From Rhodospirillaceae bacterium (GTDB lineage Bacteria; Pseudomonadota; Alphaproteobacteria; Dongiales; Dongiaceae), in the NCBI GenBank assembly GCA_008012315.1, contig SSEL01000009.1, forward strand, positions 124,001 to 188,000: a stretch of 64,000 nucleotides of DNA, in the 5' to 3' direction. Position 1 is the stretch's first letter, and each line of letters starts with the position of its first letter. The notes beneath the pieces are model-generated. The model saw nothing but the letters and a program-made list of their open reading frames with translations. It searched no databases and was not told where the DNA came from. The translations under genes were made by a program, and so were the position numbers. Below, one piece after another: positions 1 to 50,232 of the stretch.

Positions 1-236
1 TCGTGCTGATCGATAATGTGCCGCGCCTCTCCGCCGATCTGCGCGATCAGGCGCGGCGGTTCATGGTGCTGATCGACGAGCTTTACGAGCACAAGGTCAT
101 GGCCGTGATCGCCGCAGCCGATGCGCCGGAGCGGCTTTATCCAAGCGGCGACGGCGCCTTCGAATTCGAACGGACGGTGTCCCGGCTGAATGAAATGCAG
201 TCGGTTGATTATCTCAGCAGACCGCATTTGACGTGA
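1..236 (+). CDS. zapE: ZapE/AFG1-family cell-division ATPase, C-terminal fragment
   Basis: This is the last 77 codons of a gene that begins before the window; the reading frame is set by codons starting at base 3. The visible end (VLIDNVPRLSADLRDQARRF, then MAVIAAADAPERLYPSG, then FERTVSRLNEMQS) matches the C-terminal part of AFG1-like P-loop ATPases called ZapE, which act at the division site. The Walker motifs lie outside the window. In many alphaproteobacteria zapE is followed by mdh and sucCDAB, and here a decayed mdh and intact sucCDAB follow, which supports the call. Confidence 0.85.
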   Translation, partial: VLIDNVPRLSADLRDQARRFMVLIDELYEHKVMAVIAAADAPERLYPSGDGAFEFERTVSRLNEMQSVDYLSRPHLT

Positions 237-399
237 CGCAGCGGCGGGTAAAATGTGTGTTTTACAAGTTGGCCGCGAGTAACACTTGCTCTTGAGGGAA
301 AATGATAGTATTAACACAACAGCTAGTGTTGTGCGTAATGGGGAAGTGGGCGTTGCCGAAACATGCGGTGGCAATGCGTAACCTGCTCCGGGATGGGTA

Positions 400-925
400 A
401 TGGCACGCACGAAGATAGCGCTGATGAATGCCGGTGGGATCGGCGGATTGTGGCGCTACGGGCAAGCCTCAGGGAGACAGGTGACAAGTTCTGTGTGACG
501 GGGTTCCGGTCGGTCGGATCGACGCTTCCGCTGTGAGCGATCGCGAGTCAGTTCGGAATTTCCCGGTAAAGGAGCTCAGGGGTTCGGCCAAGGAAGATGG
601 CGACGCGCCTTGTGATTAGGGTGATCAATGCGCCAGCCGTCACGTCACCAGTCGAACTTCATGGAATGAACTGGACCGTCAAGATGGGGTTTGCCGCGAT
701 CACACGGCATAAGCGCGATGTCGGGTTCGATGATCGTAAACCACTTGCAAACCAGTTCAGTGTTTATGCTCCGCTGGCCGTCGTCTGATCTGGCGGCGGG
801 TCGGAGTAAAAGGGCTCTATGTCGGCGTGCCGGTGATCGGCGCCAGCGACGTGGAGAAAGTGGTCGAGATCGATTCAAGCAAAGCCTGAAAGGCTCTGTT
901 CAACGGATCGGTCGAGGCCGTTTAG
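400..925 (+). pseudogene. mdh: Decayed malate dehydrogenase (mdh) remnant
   Basis: An ATG at 400 opens MARTKIALMNAGGIGG, which matches the N-terminal NAD-binding loop of bacterial lactate-type malate dehydrogenases (family form MARxKIALIGAGxIGG). The frame then breaks. Near the end, 803-871 reads VKGLYVGVPVIGASDVEK and 890-922 reads KALFNGSVEAV in the same frame, separated by a TGA at 887. Together these match the Mdh C-terminus. Start to last match spans about 525 bp, against roughly 960 bp for an intact gene, so much of the middle is deleted or scrambled. A weak match to the AMVWALQKFSG region may lie near 729-761 in another frame. The position between zapE and sucC is the usual site of mdh in alphaproteobacteria. 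No intact open frame remains. Confidence 0.85.
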
Positions 926-972
926 GGGCCTCATCACTGTGATGGGGAAGCTTCAAAGAGGAGAGAAGCAAA

Positions 973-1176
973 ATGACTGAGACCATCCTGTTGGCCGCCA
1001 AGAAGGCCGCCAAGAAGGCCGCGAAGAAGCCGGCCGCGAAGAAGGCTGCCAAGAAGGTCGCCAAGAAGCCGGCGGCGAAGAAGGCCGCTGCCAAGAAGCC
1101 GGCCGCTAAGAAGGCCGCGAAGAAGCCCGCCGCCAAGAAGAAGTCGGCTGCGAAGAAGAAGACCGCGAAGAGGTAA
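973..1176 (+). CDS. Lysine/alanine-repeat histone H1-like basic protein
   Basis: The 67-residue product is almost entirely Lys, Ala and Pro, built from variants of KKAAKKPAAKKA after a short head (MTETILLA). No enzyme fold is possible. It resembles the C-terminal tail of histone H1 and bacterial H1-like proteins that bind DNA non-specifically, so a nucleoid role is inferred. A good ribosome site (AGAGGAGAG) lies about 8 bases upstream of the ATG. The coding DNA is a degenerate tandem repeat (AAGAAGGCCGCC-type units), which makes slippage and length variation between strains likely. It sits between the mdh remnant and sucC. The basic N-terminal tail of the protein encoded at 8386 has a similar composition. 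Confidence 0.7.
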   Translation: MTETILLAAKKAAKKAAKKPAAKKAAKKVAKKPAAKKAAAKKPAAKKAAKKPAAKKKSAAKKKTAKR

Positions 1177-1522
1177 CATCGCTTTTGCGGTGACTGGCCC
1201 GTCTGTTCTAAATGCGGGTCAGATAAGCGCTTCGCGCAAAGACCGGCGACGGCGACAGCCCTGTCCCCGACCCGGCGGGTTGAAGTTCAATTGGCTTGAA
1301 CCCGCCCTGGAAGGTGATAGAGTACGGCTTGCTGCACCACAGCAAATCGTTGGCTGTCGCTGTCGCCCGCTTTCTTGGAGCGCATTTGATGTCGGTTCCG
1401 GGGCGTTTTTCTGACGTTCCTTCCTTTTTTGTGCTCTTTAAGCTTTTTAGCTGGGCTTTTCAGCGCCCCATGCGATATGCATGCGGGTGCAATTTGCACT
1501 GCAACATTCACGGTAGCCGGGC
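1177..1522 (+). other. Non-coding gap upstream of sucC
   Basis: These 346 bases hold no convincing gene. An imperfect stem-loop is visible with GGCGGGTT (1274-1281) against AACCCGCC (1299-1306); it lacks a T-run and may be a leader structure or a weak terminator. A 13-base palindrome, GTGCAATTTGCAC (1487-1499), lies 24 bases before sucC and could be an operator. The sucC promoter is presumably here, but I cannot place it confidently. Confidence 0.4.
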
Positions 1523-2689
1523 ATGAATATTCACGAGTATCAGGCCAAGGCCCTCCTTGGCAGATTCGGTGTCGCCGTTCCCCAGGGTCATGTGGCCTAT
1601 ACGCCTGAGGAAGCGGTCGACGCAGCGCGCAAGCTTGGCGGATCGGTCTGGGTGGTCAAAGCCCAGATTCACGCCGGCGGACGCGGCAAGGCGGGTGGCG
1701 TCAAAGTCGTCAAATCGATCGATGAGGTGCGCGACGCCGCGCAGAAAATGCTCGGCATGACGCTGGTGACGCACCAGACCGGCCCGCAGGGCCGCCTAGT
1801 GAAGCGCATCTATGTCGAAAGCGGCTGCGACATCAAGCGCGAGCTCTATCTCGGCATGCTGGTGGACCGGGCGACATCGCGGATCACCATCATGGCCTCG
1901 TCGGAAGGCGGCGTGGAGATCGAAGAGGTCGCTGCGACTCATCCGGAAAAGATCATCAAGATCGCCGTCGATCCGGCAACCGGCATCCAGCCCTTCCATG
2001 CCCGTGAAGTTGCTTTCGGCCTCGGCCTCGAAGGCAATCAGATCGGCTCCTGCGTGAAGTTCGTCACCGCGATGTATCGCGCCTTCACCGAGCTCGATTG
2101 CTCGATCGTCGAAATCAATCCGCTGGTGGTGACCGGCGCCGGCGATGTGCTGGCGCTCGATGCCAAGGTGAATTTCGACGACAACGCGCTCTTCCGTCAC
2201 AAGGATGTCGAAGAACTGCGCGATGCCGATGAGGAAGATCCGGCCGAGCTGGAAGCGGCGAAGCACAGTCTCAACTACATCAAGCTCGACGGCAATATCG
2301 GCTGCATGGTGAATGGCGCCGGTCTTGCCATGGCGACGATGGATATCATCAAGCTCTATGGCGGCGCACCGGCGAATTTCCTCGATGTCGGTGGCGGCGC
2401 CACCAAGGAACGCGTCACCACGGCTTTCAAGATCATTCTCAGCGACGCCAATGTCGAAGGGATTCTGGTTAACATCTTCGGCGGCATCATGCGCTGCGAT
2501 GTGATTGCCGAGGGTGTCGTCGCCGCTGCGCGCGAGGTCAGCCTGCACGTGCCGCTGGTGGTGCGCCTCGAAGGCACCAATGTCGATCTGGGTAAGAAGA
2601 TTCTGGCGCAATCCGGCTTGCCGATCCTGTCGGCCGACAATCTGGCCGATGCGGCGGAAAAAGTCGTCAAAGCCGTGAAGGAGGCGTGA
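1523..2689 (+). CDS. sucC: Succinyl-CoA synthetase (ADP-forming) beta subunit
   Basis: SucC pairs with SucD to convert succinyl-CoA, ADP or GDP and phosphate into succinate, CoA and ATP or GTP in the TCA cycle. The 388-residue product is full length for the family. It opens with [20 protein letters not shown], the canonical start of the ATP-grasp domain, and carries [12 protein letters not shown] in the nucleotide-binding region and [10 protein letters not shown] near the C-terminus, which belongs to the CoA-ligase-like domain. The ribosome site is weak. sucD starts 4 bases downstream, so the two are co-transcribed and probably translationally linked. Confidence 0.97.
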
Positions 2690-2693
2690 GGTA

Positions 2694-3569
2694 ATGGCCG
2701 TTCTCGTCAATAAGGACACGAAGGTCATCTGCCAGGGCTTCACCGGTTCGCAAGGTACCTTCCATTCCGAACAAGCAATCGCCTATGGCACCCGCATGGT
2801 TGGCGGCGTCACGCCCGGCAAGGGCGGCACCAAGCATCTGGACCTGCCGGTCTTCGATACGGTCGCCGCGGCCGTTTCCAAGACGGGCGCCAATGCCAGC
2901 GTCATCTATGTGCCGCCGCCCTTCGCGGCCGATGCCATCCTCGAAGCCAGCGAAGCCGGCATCGAGCTGGTGGTTTGCATCACCGAAGGCATCCCGGTGC
3001 TCGACATGGTGCGGGTCAAGCGCGGCCTGTCCGGTTCCAAGACCCGCCTGATCGGCCCGAACTGCCCCGGCATCATCACGCCGGGCGAATGCAAGATCGG
3101 CATCATGCCGGGCCATATCCACAGTCGCGGCAAGATCGGCATCGTCTCGCGCTCCGGCACGCTCACTTATGAAGCGGTGGCGCAGACCACGGCGGCCGGC
3201 CTCGGCCAGACGACCTGCATCGGCATCGGCGGCGATCCGGTCAACGGCACCAATTTCGTCGACTGCCTGGAGCTGTTCCTGGCGGATGACGAAACCCAGG
3301 GCATCGTGATGATCGGCGAAATCGGCGGCAATGCCGAGGAAGACGCCGCCGCCTTCCTGAAGGCGGCAAAGAAGAAAAAGCCGGTGGTCGGCTTCATCGC
3401 CGGCGTCACCGCGCCACCGGGCCGCCGCATGGGCCATGCCGGTGCAATCATCTCCGGCGGCAAGGGCGGTGCCGGCGACAAGATCGAAGCCATGCGCTCG
3501 GCCGGGATCCTGGTGGCGGATTCGCCCGCCAGCCTGGGCAGTACCATGGTCAAGGCAATGGGCAAGTAA
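2694..3569 (+). CDS. sucD: Succinyl-CoA synthetase alpha subunit
   Basis: This is the CoA-binding and phospho-histidine subunit of succinyl-CoA synthetase. The 291 residues include the N-terminal CoA-binding Rossmann fold ([18 protein letters not shown]), GPNCPGII, and [15 protein letters not shown], whose His is the residue phosphorylated during catalysis. The start is the first ATG after sucC, 4 bases past its stop. A 238-base gap separates it from sucA, so sucCD and sucA-sucB-lpd may be separate transcripts. Confidence 0.97.
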
Positions 3570-3807: not shown

Positions 3808-6666
3808 ATGGATCAGACCAGTTTCCTTTCCGGCCCCAACGCCCCTTTCATCGAAGAACTCTACGCCAAATATCTGGAGAACGCCGCATCGGTCGATCCC
3901 AGCTGGCGCAGCTTTTTCGATGATTTGCGGGACGACGCCACCACCGTCCTGCAGGATATCCGCGGCGCCAGCTGGTCGCCGCGCGAGCGCGCGGTCGAAA
4001 TCGGCGACGGATATGAAGAGGATGGCGCGGCCGAGGATGTCGCCCGGCCGCGGGCGACATTGCGCGATCGCAAGAAAGCCGCCCTCGACAGCTTGCGGGC
4101 GATGATGCTGATCCGCGCCTATCGTGTGCGCGGCCATCTCGAAGCCAATCTCGATCCGCTGGAATTGAAGCCGCGCGGCAAGCATGCGGAACTCGATCCG
4201 CGCACCTATGGCTTCACCGAAGCCGACATGGATCGCGAAATCGTCATCGACAATGCCTTCGGTTACGAGAGCGCCACCCTGCGCCAGATCGTGCATGCGG
4301 TGCGGCAGACCTATTGCGGGTCGATCGGCATCGAATACATGCATATCGAGAATCCCGACCAGAAGAAGTGGCTGCAGATGCGGGTCGAAGGCAGTCGGGC
4401 GCAGCGCGACTTCACCGGTCGCGGCAAGCGCGCCATCCTTGCGCGCCTGACCGCGGCGGAGATGTTCGAGCGCTTCCTCGACAAGAAGTTCACCGGCACC
4501 AAGCGCTTCGGCCTCGATGGCGGCGAAACCACGATCGCGGCGCTGGAACAGGTGATCAAGCGCGGCAGCCAGCTTGGCCTCAAGGAAGTCGTGATCGGCA
4601 TGGCCCATCGCGGCCGCCTGAACGTACTGGCCAATTTCATGAACAAGCCGTTCTCGGCGATCTTCTCGGAATTCCAGGGCAATTCCGCCAATCCGGAAGA
4701 CGTGCAGGGCTCGGCCGACGTCAAATACCATCTCGGCACCTCGGCCGACCGCGAATTCGACGGCCATGTGGTGCATCTCTCGCTGAACGCCAATCCGTCG
4801 CATCTGGAAGCGGTCAATACCGTGGTGCTCGGCAAGGTGCGCGCCAAGCAGCGGCAGCGCGGCGACAAGAACCGCGAGCAGGTCATGGGGCTTCTGATCC
4901 ACGGCGACGCGGCCTTTGCCGGCCAGGGCTTGGTGCCGGAATCGCTCGATCTTTCCGAGTTGAACGGCTATCGGACCGGCGGCACGATCCACTTCATCAT
5001 CAACAACCAGATCGGCTTCACCACCAATCCGGTGGCGTCGCGGTCGGGGCCCTATTGCTCGGACATCGCCAAGGGCGTGCAGGCGCCGATCCTGCATGTC
5101 AATGCCGACGATCCCGAAGCGGTACTGTTCTGCGCCGGCCTTGCCATGGAGTTCCGCCAGGAATTCAAGCGTGACGTCGTCATCGACATGTTCTGCTATC
5201 GCCGCTATGGCCACAATGAAAGCGACGAGCCGGCTTTCACCCAGCCGCTGATGTACCGCAAGATCGCCAACCATCCGACCACCCGGGCGATCTATGCCGA
5301 CAAGCTGGTGCAGGAAGGTGTGCTGAGCCAGGCCGATGTCGATCAGGTCCTGCAGGATTTCCAGCATCACCTGGAGACGGAATTCGAAGGCTCGGCCAAT
5401 TACAAGCCGAACAAGGCCGACTGGCTGGAAGGCGCCTGGGCCGGGCTCGCCATCGCCTCGGGCGATGAGCGCCGCGGCGAAACCTCGATCATGCCCGATG
5501 GTTTGCAGGAGGTCGGCAAGGCGCTGACCACCGTGCCGGCGACCTTCAATGCCAACCGCAAGATCGCCCGCCAGCTCGCCCAGAAGGAAGAGATGTTCAA
5601 GAGCGGCGAGGGGATCGACTGGGCGACCGGCGAAGCCCTGGCTTTCGGCACGCTGCTGAATGAGGGCGTCTATGTCCGCCTCTCTGGCCAGGACTGCAAG
5701 CGCGGCACCTTCTCGCAGCGCCATGCCGTCCTGATCGACCAGGAAAACGAAGCCGAATACACGCCGCTCAACAATATCCGCCCGGGGCAGGCGCATTTCG
5801 AGGTGATCGACAGCCCGCTTTCGGAAGCCGGCGTGCTCGGCTTCGAATACGGCTTCTCGCTGGCGGAGCCGCGCGCTTTGGTGCTGTGGGAAGCGCAATT
5901 CGGCGATTTCGCCAATGGCGCCCAGGTGATCATCGACCAGTTCATTTCCTCGGGCGAAGCCAAGTGGCTGCGCATGTCCGGCCTGGTCATGCTCCTGCCC
6001 CATGGTTACGAGGGCCAGGGACCGGAACACAGCTCGGCCCGTCTCGAGCGCTATCTGCAGGCCTGCGCCGAAGACAATATGCAGGTCGTCAATGCGACCA
6101 CGCCGGCCAATTATTTCCATGTGCTGCGCCGCCAGGTGCACCGGAATTTCCGCAAGCCGCTGATCATGATGACGCCGAAATCGCTGCTGCGTCACAAGCT
6201 CTGTGTCTCGAAGCTCTCGGAATTCGGCCCGGGCACCAGCTTCCATCGCGTGCTGTGGGACGATGCGCCGCTGCAGGACAAGGACATCAAGCGCGTGGTG
6301 CTGTGTTCCGGCAAGGTCTATTACGATCTCTTCGAGGAACGCGAAAAGCGCGGCATCAAGAATATTTATCTGCTGCGCGTCGAGCAGCTCTATCCCTTCC
6401 CGGCGAAGTCGCTGGCGGCCGAATTGAAGCGCTTCCCCAAGGCGGAAGTCGTCTGGTGCCAGGAAGAGCCGAAGAATATGGGCGCCTGGACCTTCGTGAT
6501 GCCGGAAATCGAAGCCGTCATGGAAACCAACGGCCATCGCCAGCCGCGCCTGATCTATGCCGGCCGGCCGGCCGCGGCAGCGCCGGCGACCGGTCTGTTC
6601 CGACGCCATGTGAAAGAACAAGCGACACTGATCGACCAGGCCCTGGGCGTAACCAGCCGGGCCTGA
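3808..6666 (+). CDS. sucA: 2-oxoglutarate dehydrogenase E1 component
   Basis: SucA is the thiamine-diphosphate-dependent E1 of the 2-oxoglutarate dehydrogenase complex. It decarboxylates 2-oxoglutarate and transfers the succinyl group to the lipoyl arms of SucB. The 952-residue length fits the family. The N-terminus (FLSGPNAPFIEELYAKYL) is the E2-interacting segment. MAHRGRLNVLANFMNKP is the conserved His region, and GDAAFAGQG followed by NNQIGFTTNP is the ThDP/Mg-binding motif. The C-terminal transketolase-like domain includes GFEYGFSLAEPRALVLWEAQ. The 238 bases upstream hold no gene and probably include its promoter. An 8-bp perfect stem-loop separates it from sucB. Confidence 0.97.
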   Translation: MDQTSFLSGPNAPFIEELYAKYLENAASVDPSWRSFFDDLRDDATTVLQDIRGASWSPRERAVEIGDGYEEDGAAEDVARPRATLRDRKKAALDSLRAMMLIRAYRVRGHLEANLDPLELKPRGKHAELDPRTYGFTEADMDREIVIDNAFGYESATLRQIVHAVRQTYCGSIGIEYMHIENPDQKKWLQMRVEGSRAQRDFTGRGKRAILARLTAAEMFERFLDKKFTGTKRFGLDGGETTIAALEQVIKRGSQLGLKEVVIGMAHRGRLNVLANFMNKPFSAIFSEFQGNSANPEDVQGSADVKYHLGTSADREFDGHVVHLSLNANPSHLEAVNTVVLGKVRAKQRQRGDKNREQVMGLLIHGDAAFAGQGLVPESLDLSELNGYRTGGTIHFIINNQIGFTTNPVASRSGPYCSDIAKGVQAPILHVNADDPEAVLFCAGLAMEFRQEFKRDVVIDMFCYRRYGHNESDEPAFTQPLMYRKIANHPTTRAIYADKLVQEGVLSQADVDQVLQDFQHHLETEFEGSANYKPNKADWLEGAWAGLAIASGDERRGETSIMPDGLQEVGKALTTVPATFNANRKIARQLAQKEEMFKSGEGIDWATGEALAFGTLLNEGVYVRLSGQDCKRGTFSQRHAVLIDQENEAEYTPLNNIRPGQAHFEVIDSPLSEAGVLGFEYGFSLAEPRALVLWEAQFGDFANGAQVIIDQFISSGEAKWLRMSGLVMLLPHGYEGQGPEHSSARLERYLQACAEDNMQVVNATTPANYFHVLRRQVHRNFRKPLIMMTPKSLLRHKLCVSKLSEFGPGTSFHRVLWDDAPLQDKDIKRVVLCSGKVYYDLFEEREKRGIKNIYLLRVEQLYPFPAKSLAAELKRFPKAEVVWCQEEPKNMGAWTFVMPEIEAVMETNGHRQPRLIYAGRPAAAAPATGLFRRHVKEQATLIDQALGVTSRA

Positions 6667-6731: not shown

Positions 6732-6752
6732 CGAGGCTGACGAGGTGAAATG

Positions 6753-8375
6753 ATGGCCACGCCTATTGTCGTTCCGGCTCTTGGGGAATCGGTGACGGAA
6801 GCGACGGTTGCGAAGTGGATGAAGCAGGTCGGCGACCAGGTGAAGGTCGACGAAGCGCTGCTGGAACTGGAAACGGACAAGGTGACGCTGGAGGTCTTCG
6901 CGACCGCCAATGGCACCCTGGGTGAAATTGCCGCCCCGGCCGGCGCGACCGTGGCGGTCGGCGCCGTGCTGGGCCAGATCACCGATGGCGCAATTGCCGG
7001 CGGCGAAATTGTCAGCGGCGCCAATGGTGGCGGCGCAACGCCCAAGGCCGCGGCGACAGCCGCCAAAGCAGCCGCCGTGCCGGCGAAAGCATCTGCGGCA
7101 CCGGCTGCCAGTTCGGCAGGCTCGGCGACGCCAATCACCGTTCCGGCCCTCGGCGAATCGGTGACGGAAGCCACCGTGGCCAAATGGAGCAAGAAAGTCG
7201 GCGATGCGGTCAAGGCCGACGAAGCCCTGCTGGAACTGGAGACCGATAAGGTCACGCTTGAAGTTTTCGCGCCCACCAGCGGCACGCTGGGCGAGATCGT
7301 GGCGCCGCAAGGGTCGACCGTCGCGGTCGGTGCGGTTCTCGGCCGGATCACCGATGGCGCCGTCGTCAGCACCAATGGCAGTGGTGCTGCTGCTGCGGCG
7401 GCGCCGGCGGCAACATCGGCACCGGCCGCCAAGGCTGATGATCTCGCGCCGGCGGTCCGCAAGCTGGTCGCTGAAAACAATCTCGATCCGGCGAAGATCA
7501 ACGGAACCGGCAAGGACGGCCGCCTGCTGAAGGAAGATGTCCTGGCTTATCTCGAAAAGCAGAAGAGCGCTCCGGCGGCCCAGCCGGCAGCCCCGGCACA
7601 GCCGGCACCGGTCGCGCGTCCGGCGACGCCGCCGCAGCCGGCAGTCGAACTGCCGCATGTGCCGCGGGCTTTGGGGCCGAATGAAGAACGCGTGCCGATG
7701 TCGCGCCTGCGCCGCCGCATCGCCGAGCGCCTGAAGCAGGCGCAGAACAATGCCGCCATGCTGACCACCTTCAACGAGGTGGATATGGGCGCGGTGATGG
7801 CGTTGCGCGAAAAATACAAGGACGGCTTCGAGAAGCGCCACAAGGTGAAGCTCGGTTTCATGGGCTTCTTCGTGCGCGCCGCCATCCAGGCCTTGAAGGA
7901 AGTGCCGGCGGTCAATGCCGAGATCGACGGCCCGGACATCATCTATAAGAACCATTACGATGTCGGTGTCGCGGTCGGCACCGAGCAGGGCCTGGTCGTG
8001 CCGGTGGTGCGCGATGCCGACAAGATGAGCCTTGCCGAGATCGAACAGCGTATCGCCGAGCTCGGCCGCCGCGCCCGCGACGGCAAGCTCTCGATTGAGG
8101 AGCTGACCGGCGGCACCTTCACCATCTCCAATGGCGGTGTCTATGGCTCGCTGATGTCGACGCCGATCCTCAACCCACCACAATCCGGCATCCTCGGCAT
8201 GCATAAGATCCAGCAGCGGCCCATGGTGGTCGACGGCAAGATCGAGGCGCGGCCGATGATGTATCTGGCGCTCAGCTACGATCACCGCATCATCGACGGC
8301 CGCGAGGCCGTGACCTTCCTGGTGCGTCTGAAGGATTGCCTGGAAGATCCGCAGCGCCTGATCCTGGAGATCTGA
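6753..8375 (+). CDS. sucB: 2-oxoglutarate dehydrogenase E2 (dihydrolipoyl succinyltransferase) with two lipoyl domains
   Basis: SucB is the core of the 2-oxoglutarate dehydrogenase complex. Domains in order are a first lipoyl domain (about 1-78, lipoyl Lys43 in ETDKVTLEV), an Ala-rich linker, a second lipoyl domain (about 124-201, Lys166 in the same motif), another linker, an E1/E3-binding domain ([20 protein letters not shown]), an Ala/Pro linker and the acyltransferase domain ending with DHRIIDG. About 540 residues is longer than the roughly 400 of one-lipoyl SucB because of the extra domain. The two lipoyl domains are nearly identical around the lysine, so the duplication is recent or homogenised. 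I chose the second of two adjacent ATGs (6753) because GAGG lies 7 bases upstream; 6750 is the alternative. Confidence 0.95.
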
Positions 8376-9114: not shown

Positions 9115-9161
9115 GGCCGCCCGGTGCGACGGCCGGGAACAGATTGAAGAAGGAGCCGATG

Positions 9162-10565
9162 ATGGCGGAAGACAGTTTCGACGTGGTGGTGATCGGTGGC
9201 GGGCCGGGCGGTTATGTCTGCGCCATCAAGGCGGCACAGCTCGGCCTCAAGACCGCTTGCATCGAGAAGCGCGGCGCGCTTGGCGGCACCTGCCTTAATG
9301 TCGGCTGCATTCCCTCGAAGGCTCTGCTGACCTCATCGCATAAATATGCCGAGGCGGCGCATGACTTTGCAGCCCATGGCATCAAGGTCGGTAAGCTTGA
9401 CCTCGATTTGAAAACGATGATGGATCGCAAGAACAAGGTGGTTGGCGATCTCACCAAAGGCGTCGAGTTCCTCTTCAAGAAGAATAAGGTCACCTATCTG
9501 AAGGGGACCGGCAAGCTGCTGGGTGGCGGCAAGATCGAGGTCAGCGGGGAGAAGGCCCAGGCCGTTTCGGCCAAGAGCATCATCATCGCTACCGGTTCCG
9601 ATGTGACGCCGCTGCCCGGTGTCGCCATCGATGAAAAGCAGATCGTTTCCTCGACCGGCGCCTTGTCCCTGGAGAAAGTGCCGGAGCACCTAGTCGTCAT
9701 TGGCGGCGGGGTGATCGGCCTGGAGATGGGTTCGGTCTGGCTGCGCCTCGGCGCCAAGGTAACGGTGGTCGAATTCCTCGACCGGATCGTGCCGAGCATC
9801 GATACTGAAGTCAGCACCCAGTTCCAGCGCGTCCTGACCAAACAGGGCATGACCTTCAAGCTCGGCACCAAGGTGACCTCAGCGAAGAGTGCCAAAGGCA
9901 AGGTAACGCTCAGCCTGGAACCGGCCAAGGGCGGCGCCAAGGAAGAACTGGTGGCCGATGCGGTGCTGGTGGCGATCGGCCGCAAGCCCTATACCGAAGG
10001 CCTCGGCCTCGACACCGCCGGCGTGGCACTGGATGAGAAAGGCCGCATCAAGACCGATCATCACTTCCAGACCAATGTGCCCGGTATCTATGCGATCGGC
10101 GACGTCATCGCCGGCCCGATGCTGGCCCATAAGGCGGAAGAGGAAGGTGTGGCCATCGCCGAAATGCTGGCCGGCCAGGCCGGCCATGTGAATTACGAGA
10201 CGGTGCCGAATATCGTCTACACTTGGCCGGAACTGGCGAGTGTCGGCAAGAGCGAGGACGAATTGAAGGCGGCCGGTGTCGACTACAAGATCGGCAAGTT
10301 CCCCTTCCTGGCGAATTCCCGCGCCAAGGCCAATGCCGATACCGACGGCCTCGTCAAGCTCATCGCCGATGCCAAGACTGACCGCCTGCTTGGCGCCCAT
10401 GTGCTGGGGCCGGATGCCGGCACGCTTATTCATGAATGCGTCATGGCGATGGAATTCCACGCCTCGGCAGAAGATGTCGCCCGCGCCTTCCATGGCCACC
10501 CGACTTTCAATGAAGCTATCAAGGAAGCGGCTCTGGCGATTTTCAGCAAGGCCATTCATATCTGA
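9162..10565 (+). CDS. lpd: Dihydrolipoamide dehydrogenase (E3)
   Basis: This flavoprotein reoxidises the lipoyl groups of SucB with NAD+. It has the N-terminal FAD-binding motif VVVIGGGPGGYVCA, the redox disulfide Cys44/Cys49 in GGTCLNVGCIPSK, the NAD-binding motif VIGGGVIGLEMG, and the C-terminal interface HAHPTxNE-type segment (AFHGHPTFNEAI) carrying the catalytic His-Glu pair. I chose the ATG at 9162 because AAGGAG ends 6 bases before it. ATG 9159 is only 3 bases from that site, and an in-frame TTG at 9144 has no ribosome site. The gene ends the sucA-sucB operon and is followed by a stem-loop. Confidence 0.96.
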   Translation: MAEDSFDVVVIGGGPGGYVCAIKAAQLGLKTACIEKRGALGGTCLNVGCIPSKALLTSSHKYAEAAHDFAAHGIKVGKLDLDLKTMMDRKNKVVGDLTKGVEFLFKKNKVTYLKGTGKLLGGGKIEVSGEKAQAVSAKSIIIATGSDVTPLPGVAIDEKQIVSSTGALSLEKVPEHLVVIGGGVIGLEMGSVWLRLGAKVTVVEFLDRIVPSIDTEVSTQFQRVLTKQGMTFKLGTKVTSAKSAKGKVTLSLEPAKGGAKEELVADAVLVAIGRKPYTEGLGLDTAGVALDEKGRIKTDHHFQTNVPGIYAIGDVIAGPMLAHKAEEEGVAIAEMLAGQAGHVNYETVPNIVYTWPELASVGKSEDELKAAGVDYKIGKFPFLANSRAKANADTDGLVKLIADAKTDRLLGAHVLGPDAGTLIHECVMAMEFHASAEDVARAFHGHPTFNEAIKEAALAIFSKAIHI

Positions 10566-50047: not shown

Positions 50048-50148
50048 GCGGGAGGTTGGCGGCGGACGGGCGTCTCGCCAACCCGGTCAGGTCCGGAAGG
50101 AAGCAGCCGTAACGAGTTTCGCGCTCGGGTCGTTGTCCAGCCTCCCAC
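50048..50148 (+). ncRNA. ffs: Signal recognition particle RNA (4.5S type)
   Basis: GGGAGGTTGG (50050-50059) pairs with CCAGCCTCCC (50137-50146), closing a long hairpin. The conserved domain IV reads GGTCAGGTCCGGAAGGAAGC at 50085-50104, followed by AGCCGTAACGAG. This binds Ffh to form the signal recognition particle. It lies directly upstream of dnaX, the usual place in alphaproteobacteria. Confidence 0.95.
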
Positions 50149-50232
50149 CCGTTTCCGCGCTGTTGGCATGCGCCGGAAATGCAGGGCACGGCCCGCTTGG
50201 CAGCAATTATCCGACATTCAGATCGACCGCGT

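Follow-up and report, generated by a model that had tools for sequence, protein, structure and literature searches.

Gene organization of the locus

The window (the whole stretch of DNA analysed, 64,000 nt) carries near its start a cluster of TCA cycle genes. In the bacterial family concerned the genes are arranged in the order of sdhA-sdhB-ORF-zapE-mdh-sucC-sucD-sucA, with some variation upstream of zapE among the relatives carrying the locus, and the same order is found here except for an intact mdh. An intact TIGR01763 Mdh scoring over the cut-off is encoded in 15 of 16 family relatives, the exception being a genome that is 68% complete. The mdh-sucCDAB operon with the alphaproteobacterial Mdh (TIGR01763) has been described for Sinorhizobium meliloti (PMC4960864) and in Rhizobiales regulons (PMC4052901). 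The locus studied here has the same position and gene order and a relic recognizable over the full gene length, but its mdh is a pseudogene. The features are as follows:

1..236, + strand: 3' end of zapE (tblastn synteny, 55-77% identity to zapE of relatives)
237..399, + strand: zapE-mdh intergenic region with a promoter-like segment (TTGCTC...TAGTAT)
400..971, + strand: mdh pseudogene, alphaproteobacterial TIGR01763 type, with both ends kept, about 390 nt gone from the middle, several frame changes and an in-frame stop
654..779, + strand: internal segment of the relic that is best recognizable (Mdh residues 196-237), heavily eroded
803..971, + strand: 3' end of the relic, its best preserved part (tblastn and DNA identity), holding the ribosome-binding site AAGAGGAGAG of the small ORF
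973..1176, + strand: lysine/alanine-rich small ORF, 67 aa, with no match in Pfam or NCBIfam
1243..1378, + strand: conserved long stem and three-way junction, lying 3' of the small ORF and 5' of sucC (independent folds), a candidate terminator or leader RNA
1523..2689, + strand: sucC, succinyl-CoA ligase beta subunit, intact
2694-3569: sucD, 3' of sucC
3808-6666: sucA, 3' of sucD
6750-8375: 2-oxoglutarate dehydrogenase E2, 3' of sucA
9144-10565: dihydrolipoyl dehydrogenase, 3' of the E2 gene

The genes zapE, sucC, sucD and sucA flanking the relic are all intact. A small bacterial SRP RNA at window 50050-50149 is the only hit in the window to reach the Rfam gathering score.

Extent and decay of the mdh relic

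Fifteen Mdh proteins of the family were used as tblastn queries against the window, and three clear Mdh pieces were detected in three different frames: an N-terminal match at 400-447 in frame 1 (12/16 residues, MARTKIALMNAGGIGG), a piece at 803-928 in frame 2 reading GVKGLYVGVPVIGASDVEKVVEIDSSKA*KALFNGSVEAV*G (E of about 1e-10 alone and 5e-13 at best when joined with the next piece), and a C-terminal match at 924-971 in frame 3 (13/16 residues, RGLITVMGKLQRGEKQ). The stretch 654-779 gives a fourth, weaker match. Because nucleotide alignment of the whole region put the 5' portion of the relic in the wrong place, the relic was aligned at protein level with frameshifts allowed; this frameshift-aware alignment placed Mdh residues 1-321 over 400-971 with scores of 276-288, whereas 60 shuffles scored no higher than 56 and 30 random segments of the window no higher than 62. 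Placement at about 518-653 varies with the reference protein and is unreliable. The initial annotation had described an mdh decayed between zapE and sucC at 400-925 and had suggested this translated search: the fragments that it quoted are present together with frameshifts and stops, and its start at 400 stands, whereas both tblastn and the alignment carry the 3' limit to 971. The relic on the + strand, lying between the end of zapE (236) and the start of sucC (1523), thus measures 572 nt vs 963 nt for the mdh of relatives, a net loss of about 390 nt. It is homologous over the full Mdh length at a conserved locus and is the ancestral gene, not an insertion. Neither a second copy of the relic nor an intact version of the same DNA was found elsewhere in its own genome.

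Against the TIGR01763 profile the relic scores 20.6 bits (cut-off 351.85), with one TGA and one TAG. There is no continuous reading frame, and stops fall within the best preserved part. Mdh residues from about 44 to 195 are mostly deleted or unrecognizable, and the motifs IPRKPGMSRDD, LDSARFR and GGHGD, which contain the catalytic arginines, aspartate and histidine, are absent from the aligned relic in the frameshift-aware alignment. The segment 654-779 has 66% DNA identity to the two nearest genera vs 81% between those genera, and its mismatches by codon position (11/41, 14/42 and 17/40) are nearly even; the corresponding rates for the relatives are 0.156, 0.066 and 0.359. Substitution in the middle of the relic is thus near-neutral. 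Judged from the sequence, the relic derives from the TIGR01763 family with loss of functional membership, and we classify 400-971 as a unitary pseudogene of the ancestral alphaproteobacterial mdh.

A malate dehydrogenase of another subfamily on contig C53

The initial annotation had further concluded that a core TCA step was lost from this locus, leaving the cell to keep mdh elsewhere, to use a malate:quinone oxidoreductase or to run an altered cycle, and it had proposed a whole-genome search with Mdh and Mqo profiles. The loss from the locus was confirmed, the ancestral mdh being dead and no further TIGR01763 gene being found in the genome; the next match to that profile is a gene on contig C53 at 76 bits, a cross-match. 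The protein encoded by this gene, the only Ldh_1_C protein in the genome, scores 556.1 bits against NF003916 (cut-off 271) and 479.5 bits against TIGR01759 (cut-off 345.65), and by these scores is a full-length, intact and probably NAD-type malate dehydrogenase of the PRK05442/TIGR01759 type, as the first of the three alternatives had it. It is close to structurally solved bacterial MDHs, aligns end to end with one of them, 3d5t, and retains RPR...MERRDLL, LDHNR and GNHSPTM, which we take to be its catalytic motifs from knowledge of the superfamily. Compared with the known PRK05442/TIGR01759 enzymes (3d5t, 1b8p, 1bmd and cytoplasmic 4mdh), it is a full-length member far over the curated cut-offs; it differs in that its gene is away from the TCA operon and that the protein falls in an alphaproteobacterial group near Burkholderiaceae in the tree. 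No gene neighbourhood beyond mdh itself was found in common between the C53 gene and other carriers.

Two further candidates were considered. Mqo (PF06039) gave no match in the genome, with positive controls in E. coli and C. glutamicum, and a malate:quinone oxidoreductase was rejected as the replacement. An Ldh_2 protein on contig C8 is unlikely to be the main malate dehydrogenase, as it is under the cut-off of every NCBIfam model that it matched.

The assembly consists of 93 contigs and has stated values of 100 for completeness and 3.71 for contamination; a functional mdh copy could lie in an assembly gap, though at this completeness that is improbable. C53, 34 kb long, is assigned to the genome by its composition. 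GC content is 0.632 for C53 and 0.625 for the window, and the tetranucleotide correlation between the two is 0.905, compared with 0.912 between the window halves and 0.78-0.89 for family relatives; by composition C53 fits as part of this genome.

Phylogeny and frequency of the replacement

In a tree of 85 sequences with arbitrary root, the C53 protein groups with those of L028 (a MAG labelled Alphaproteobacteria), Azorhizobium, Aquabacter, Aureimonas and others, with support of 100/99. Its closest PRK05442 relatives outside the genome have 88% and 81-84% identity. The L028 genome has no TIGR01763 match over cut-off. The family relative G004 has both MDH types, as does Azorhizobium, the expected intermediate state. 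The PRK05442 copy of G004 is not sister to the C53 copy in the tree, so simple inheritance of the C53-type gene from the common ancestor of the family is improbable. The PRK05442-type mdh has likely spread horizontally among alphaproteobacteria, with either direction possible.

Among 389 genomes sampled from the class (completeness >=95%), TIGR01763 is over cut-off in 315 and PRK05442 in 16; half of the latter (8/16) carry both types and the other eight, from four families, the PRK05442 type alone. The genome analysed here is the sole mdh loss in its family among the relatives searched, which all belong to other genera of the family. No mdh relic was recognized 5' of sucC in the PRK05442-only genomes G055, G061, three Aureimonas, G071 and G072. 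Replacement by the PRK05442 type is uncommon yet recurrent, ordinary in kind and rare in frequency, and no published report of a replacement of TIGR01763 by PRK05442 was found among the papers covered by a literature search. Horizontal transfer of cytosolic-type MDH has been discussed for eukaryotes (PMC4224347); in that gene displacement, as here, one function is served by two subfamilies and one replaces the other, the difference being that here a remnant of the displaced gene persists at its site. In another genome, a PRK05442-type Mdh match with one internal TGA lies at G403:C1:598055-599026; that genome also encodes a TIGR01763 Mdh, perhaps the opposite outcome with the second enzyme lost.

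Conserved elements around the relic

The intergenic region 237-399 shows no excess decay, with 76.5% identity to the two nearest genera vs 76.3% between those genera; no sigma-70 site was found in it by consensus scan. The corresponding values are 81.0 vs 78.1 for the structured element and 83.8 vs 82.5 for sucC. The last 48 nt of the relic, its best-kept part, are 91% identical to the relatives vs 99% among the relatives; the small ORF has its ribosome-binding site there. Loss of mdh appears to be confined to the coding part, and we infer that the ends of the relic have been kept by selection.

A small ORF of 29-88 aa is found directly 3' of mdh in 15/15 family relatives, in most of which its start overlaps the mdh stop, mostly by 4 nt; no comparable ORF was seen 3' of mdh in 19 loci from other families. 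When 16 family sequences of the stem element were folded independently, the predicted energies were -64 to -80 kcal/mol, with a long closing stem and mostly two inner hairpins. Across 11 sequences the 15 pairs of the closing helix are formed in 100% of cells, although 10/15 pairs are invariant. The element occurs in one place per genome, at the mdh-sucC locus only, and its model gives weak matches at this position in more distant genera of the family. It has no Rfam match, and in several genomes a T-run lies 3' of it; it could serve sucC as a terminator or leader RNA.

Interpretation

Very probably, the ancestral operon mdh decayed once a second MDH of the PRK05442/TIGR01759 subfamily, now on C53, had been gained or kept. 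An ancestor with both genes would have had two enzymes for one reaction, which would make the operon copy dispensable and open to decay via deletions and frameshifts, with the remainder of the locus (upstream region, small ORF, stem element and sucCDAB) staying. The order of events would then be gain first and loss second, and the C53 enzyme presumably carries the TCA flux. Since an intact MDH of another type is encoded elsewhere in the genome, the TCA cycle is probably complete.

It is very unlikely that C53 is a contaminant and that the cell, without an NAD-malate dehydrogenase, runs an altered or broken cycle or relies on another enzyme such as the Ldh_2 protein of C8. The contamination estimate, the fragmentary assembly and the existence of that protein speak for such a scenario, but the composition of C53 matches the window as well as the window halves match each other, the identities to the closest outside PRK05442 relatives point to no known laboratory contaminant, and the C8 protein stays below cut-off. 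There is no sign of a missing TCA step in the cell, and the altered cycle of the initial annotation is unlikely. Misassembly or sequencing error over a truly intact mdh is harder still to credit, and we consider it extremely improbable: the assembly is a draft, but the indels are several and the lost nucleotides are missing at several places, ruling out a simple base-call error, substitutions are spread over all codon positions in 654-779, and the genes on either side are intact.

Some present use of the remnant, as a short peptide or as a leader RNA for the downstream small ORF, seems improbable, if less so. It would agree with the undecayed upstream region and with the well-kept last 48 nt and their ribosome-binding site; against it, the middle evolves near neutrally, no single reading frame is kept, constraint seems limited to the ends, and even in the last 48 nt conservation is lower here than among the relatives (0.91 vs 0.99). 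Displacement of the operon mdh by the C53 enzyme offers a clean case of a core TCA enzyme replaced by another subfamily with its relic still in place, and a caution that one locus is insufficient to call the TCA cycle broken.

The decayed and kept segments separate the coding function of mdh from control elements that are maybe still needed for sucCDAB. As a tentative proposal, with the odds somewhat against it, the mdh-sucC stretch in this family might hold an undescribed control unit in which a lysine-rich small protein, translated from the mdh end, is combined with an RNA structure 5' of sucC; survival of the promoter region and of the 3' end of the dead gene might then reflect selection acting on this unit. 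Of the features at this locus, the relic is perhaps less worthy of further attention than the small ORF and the structured element. Within the stem element, TGCTGCACCACAGCA at window 1330-1344 is invariant in 11 sequences, in both arms and the loop, and could be a regulator operator or a hairpin.
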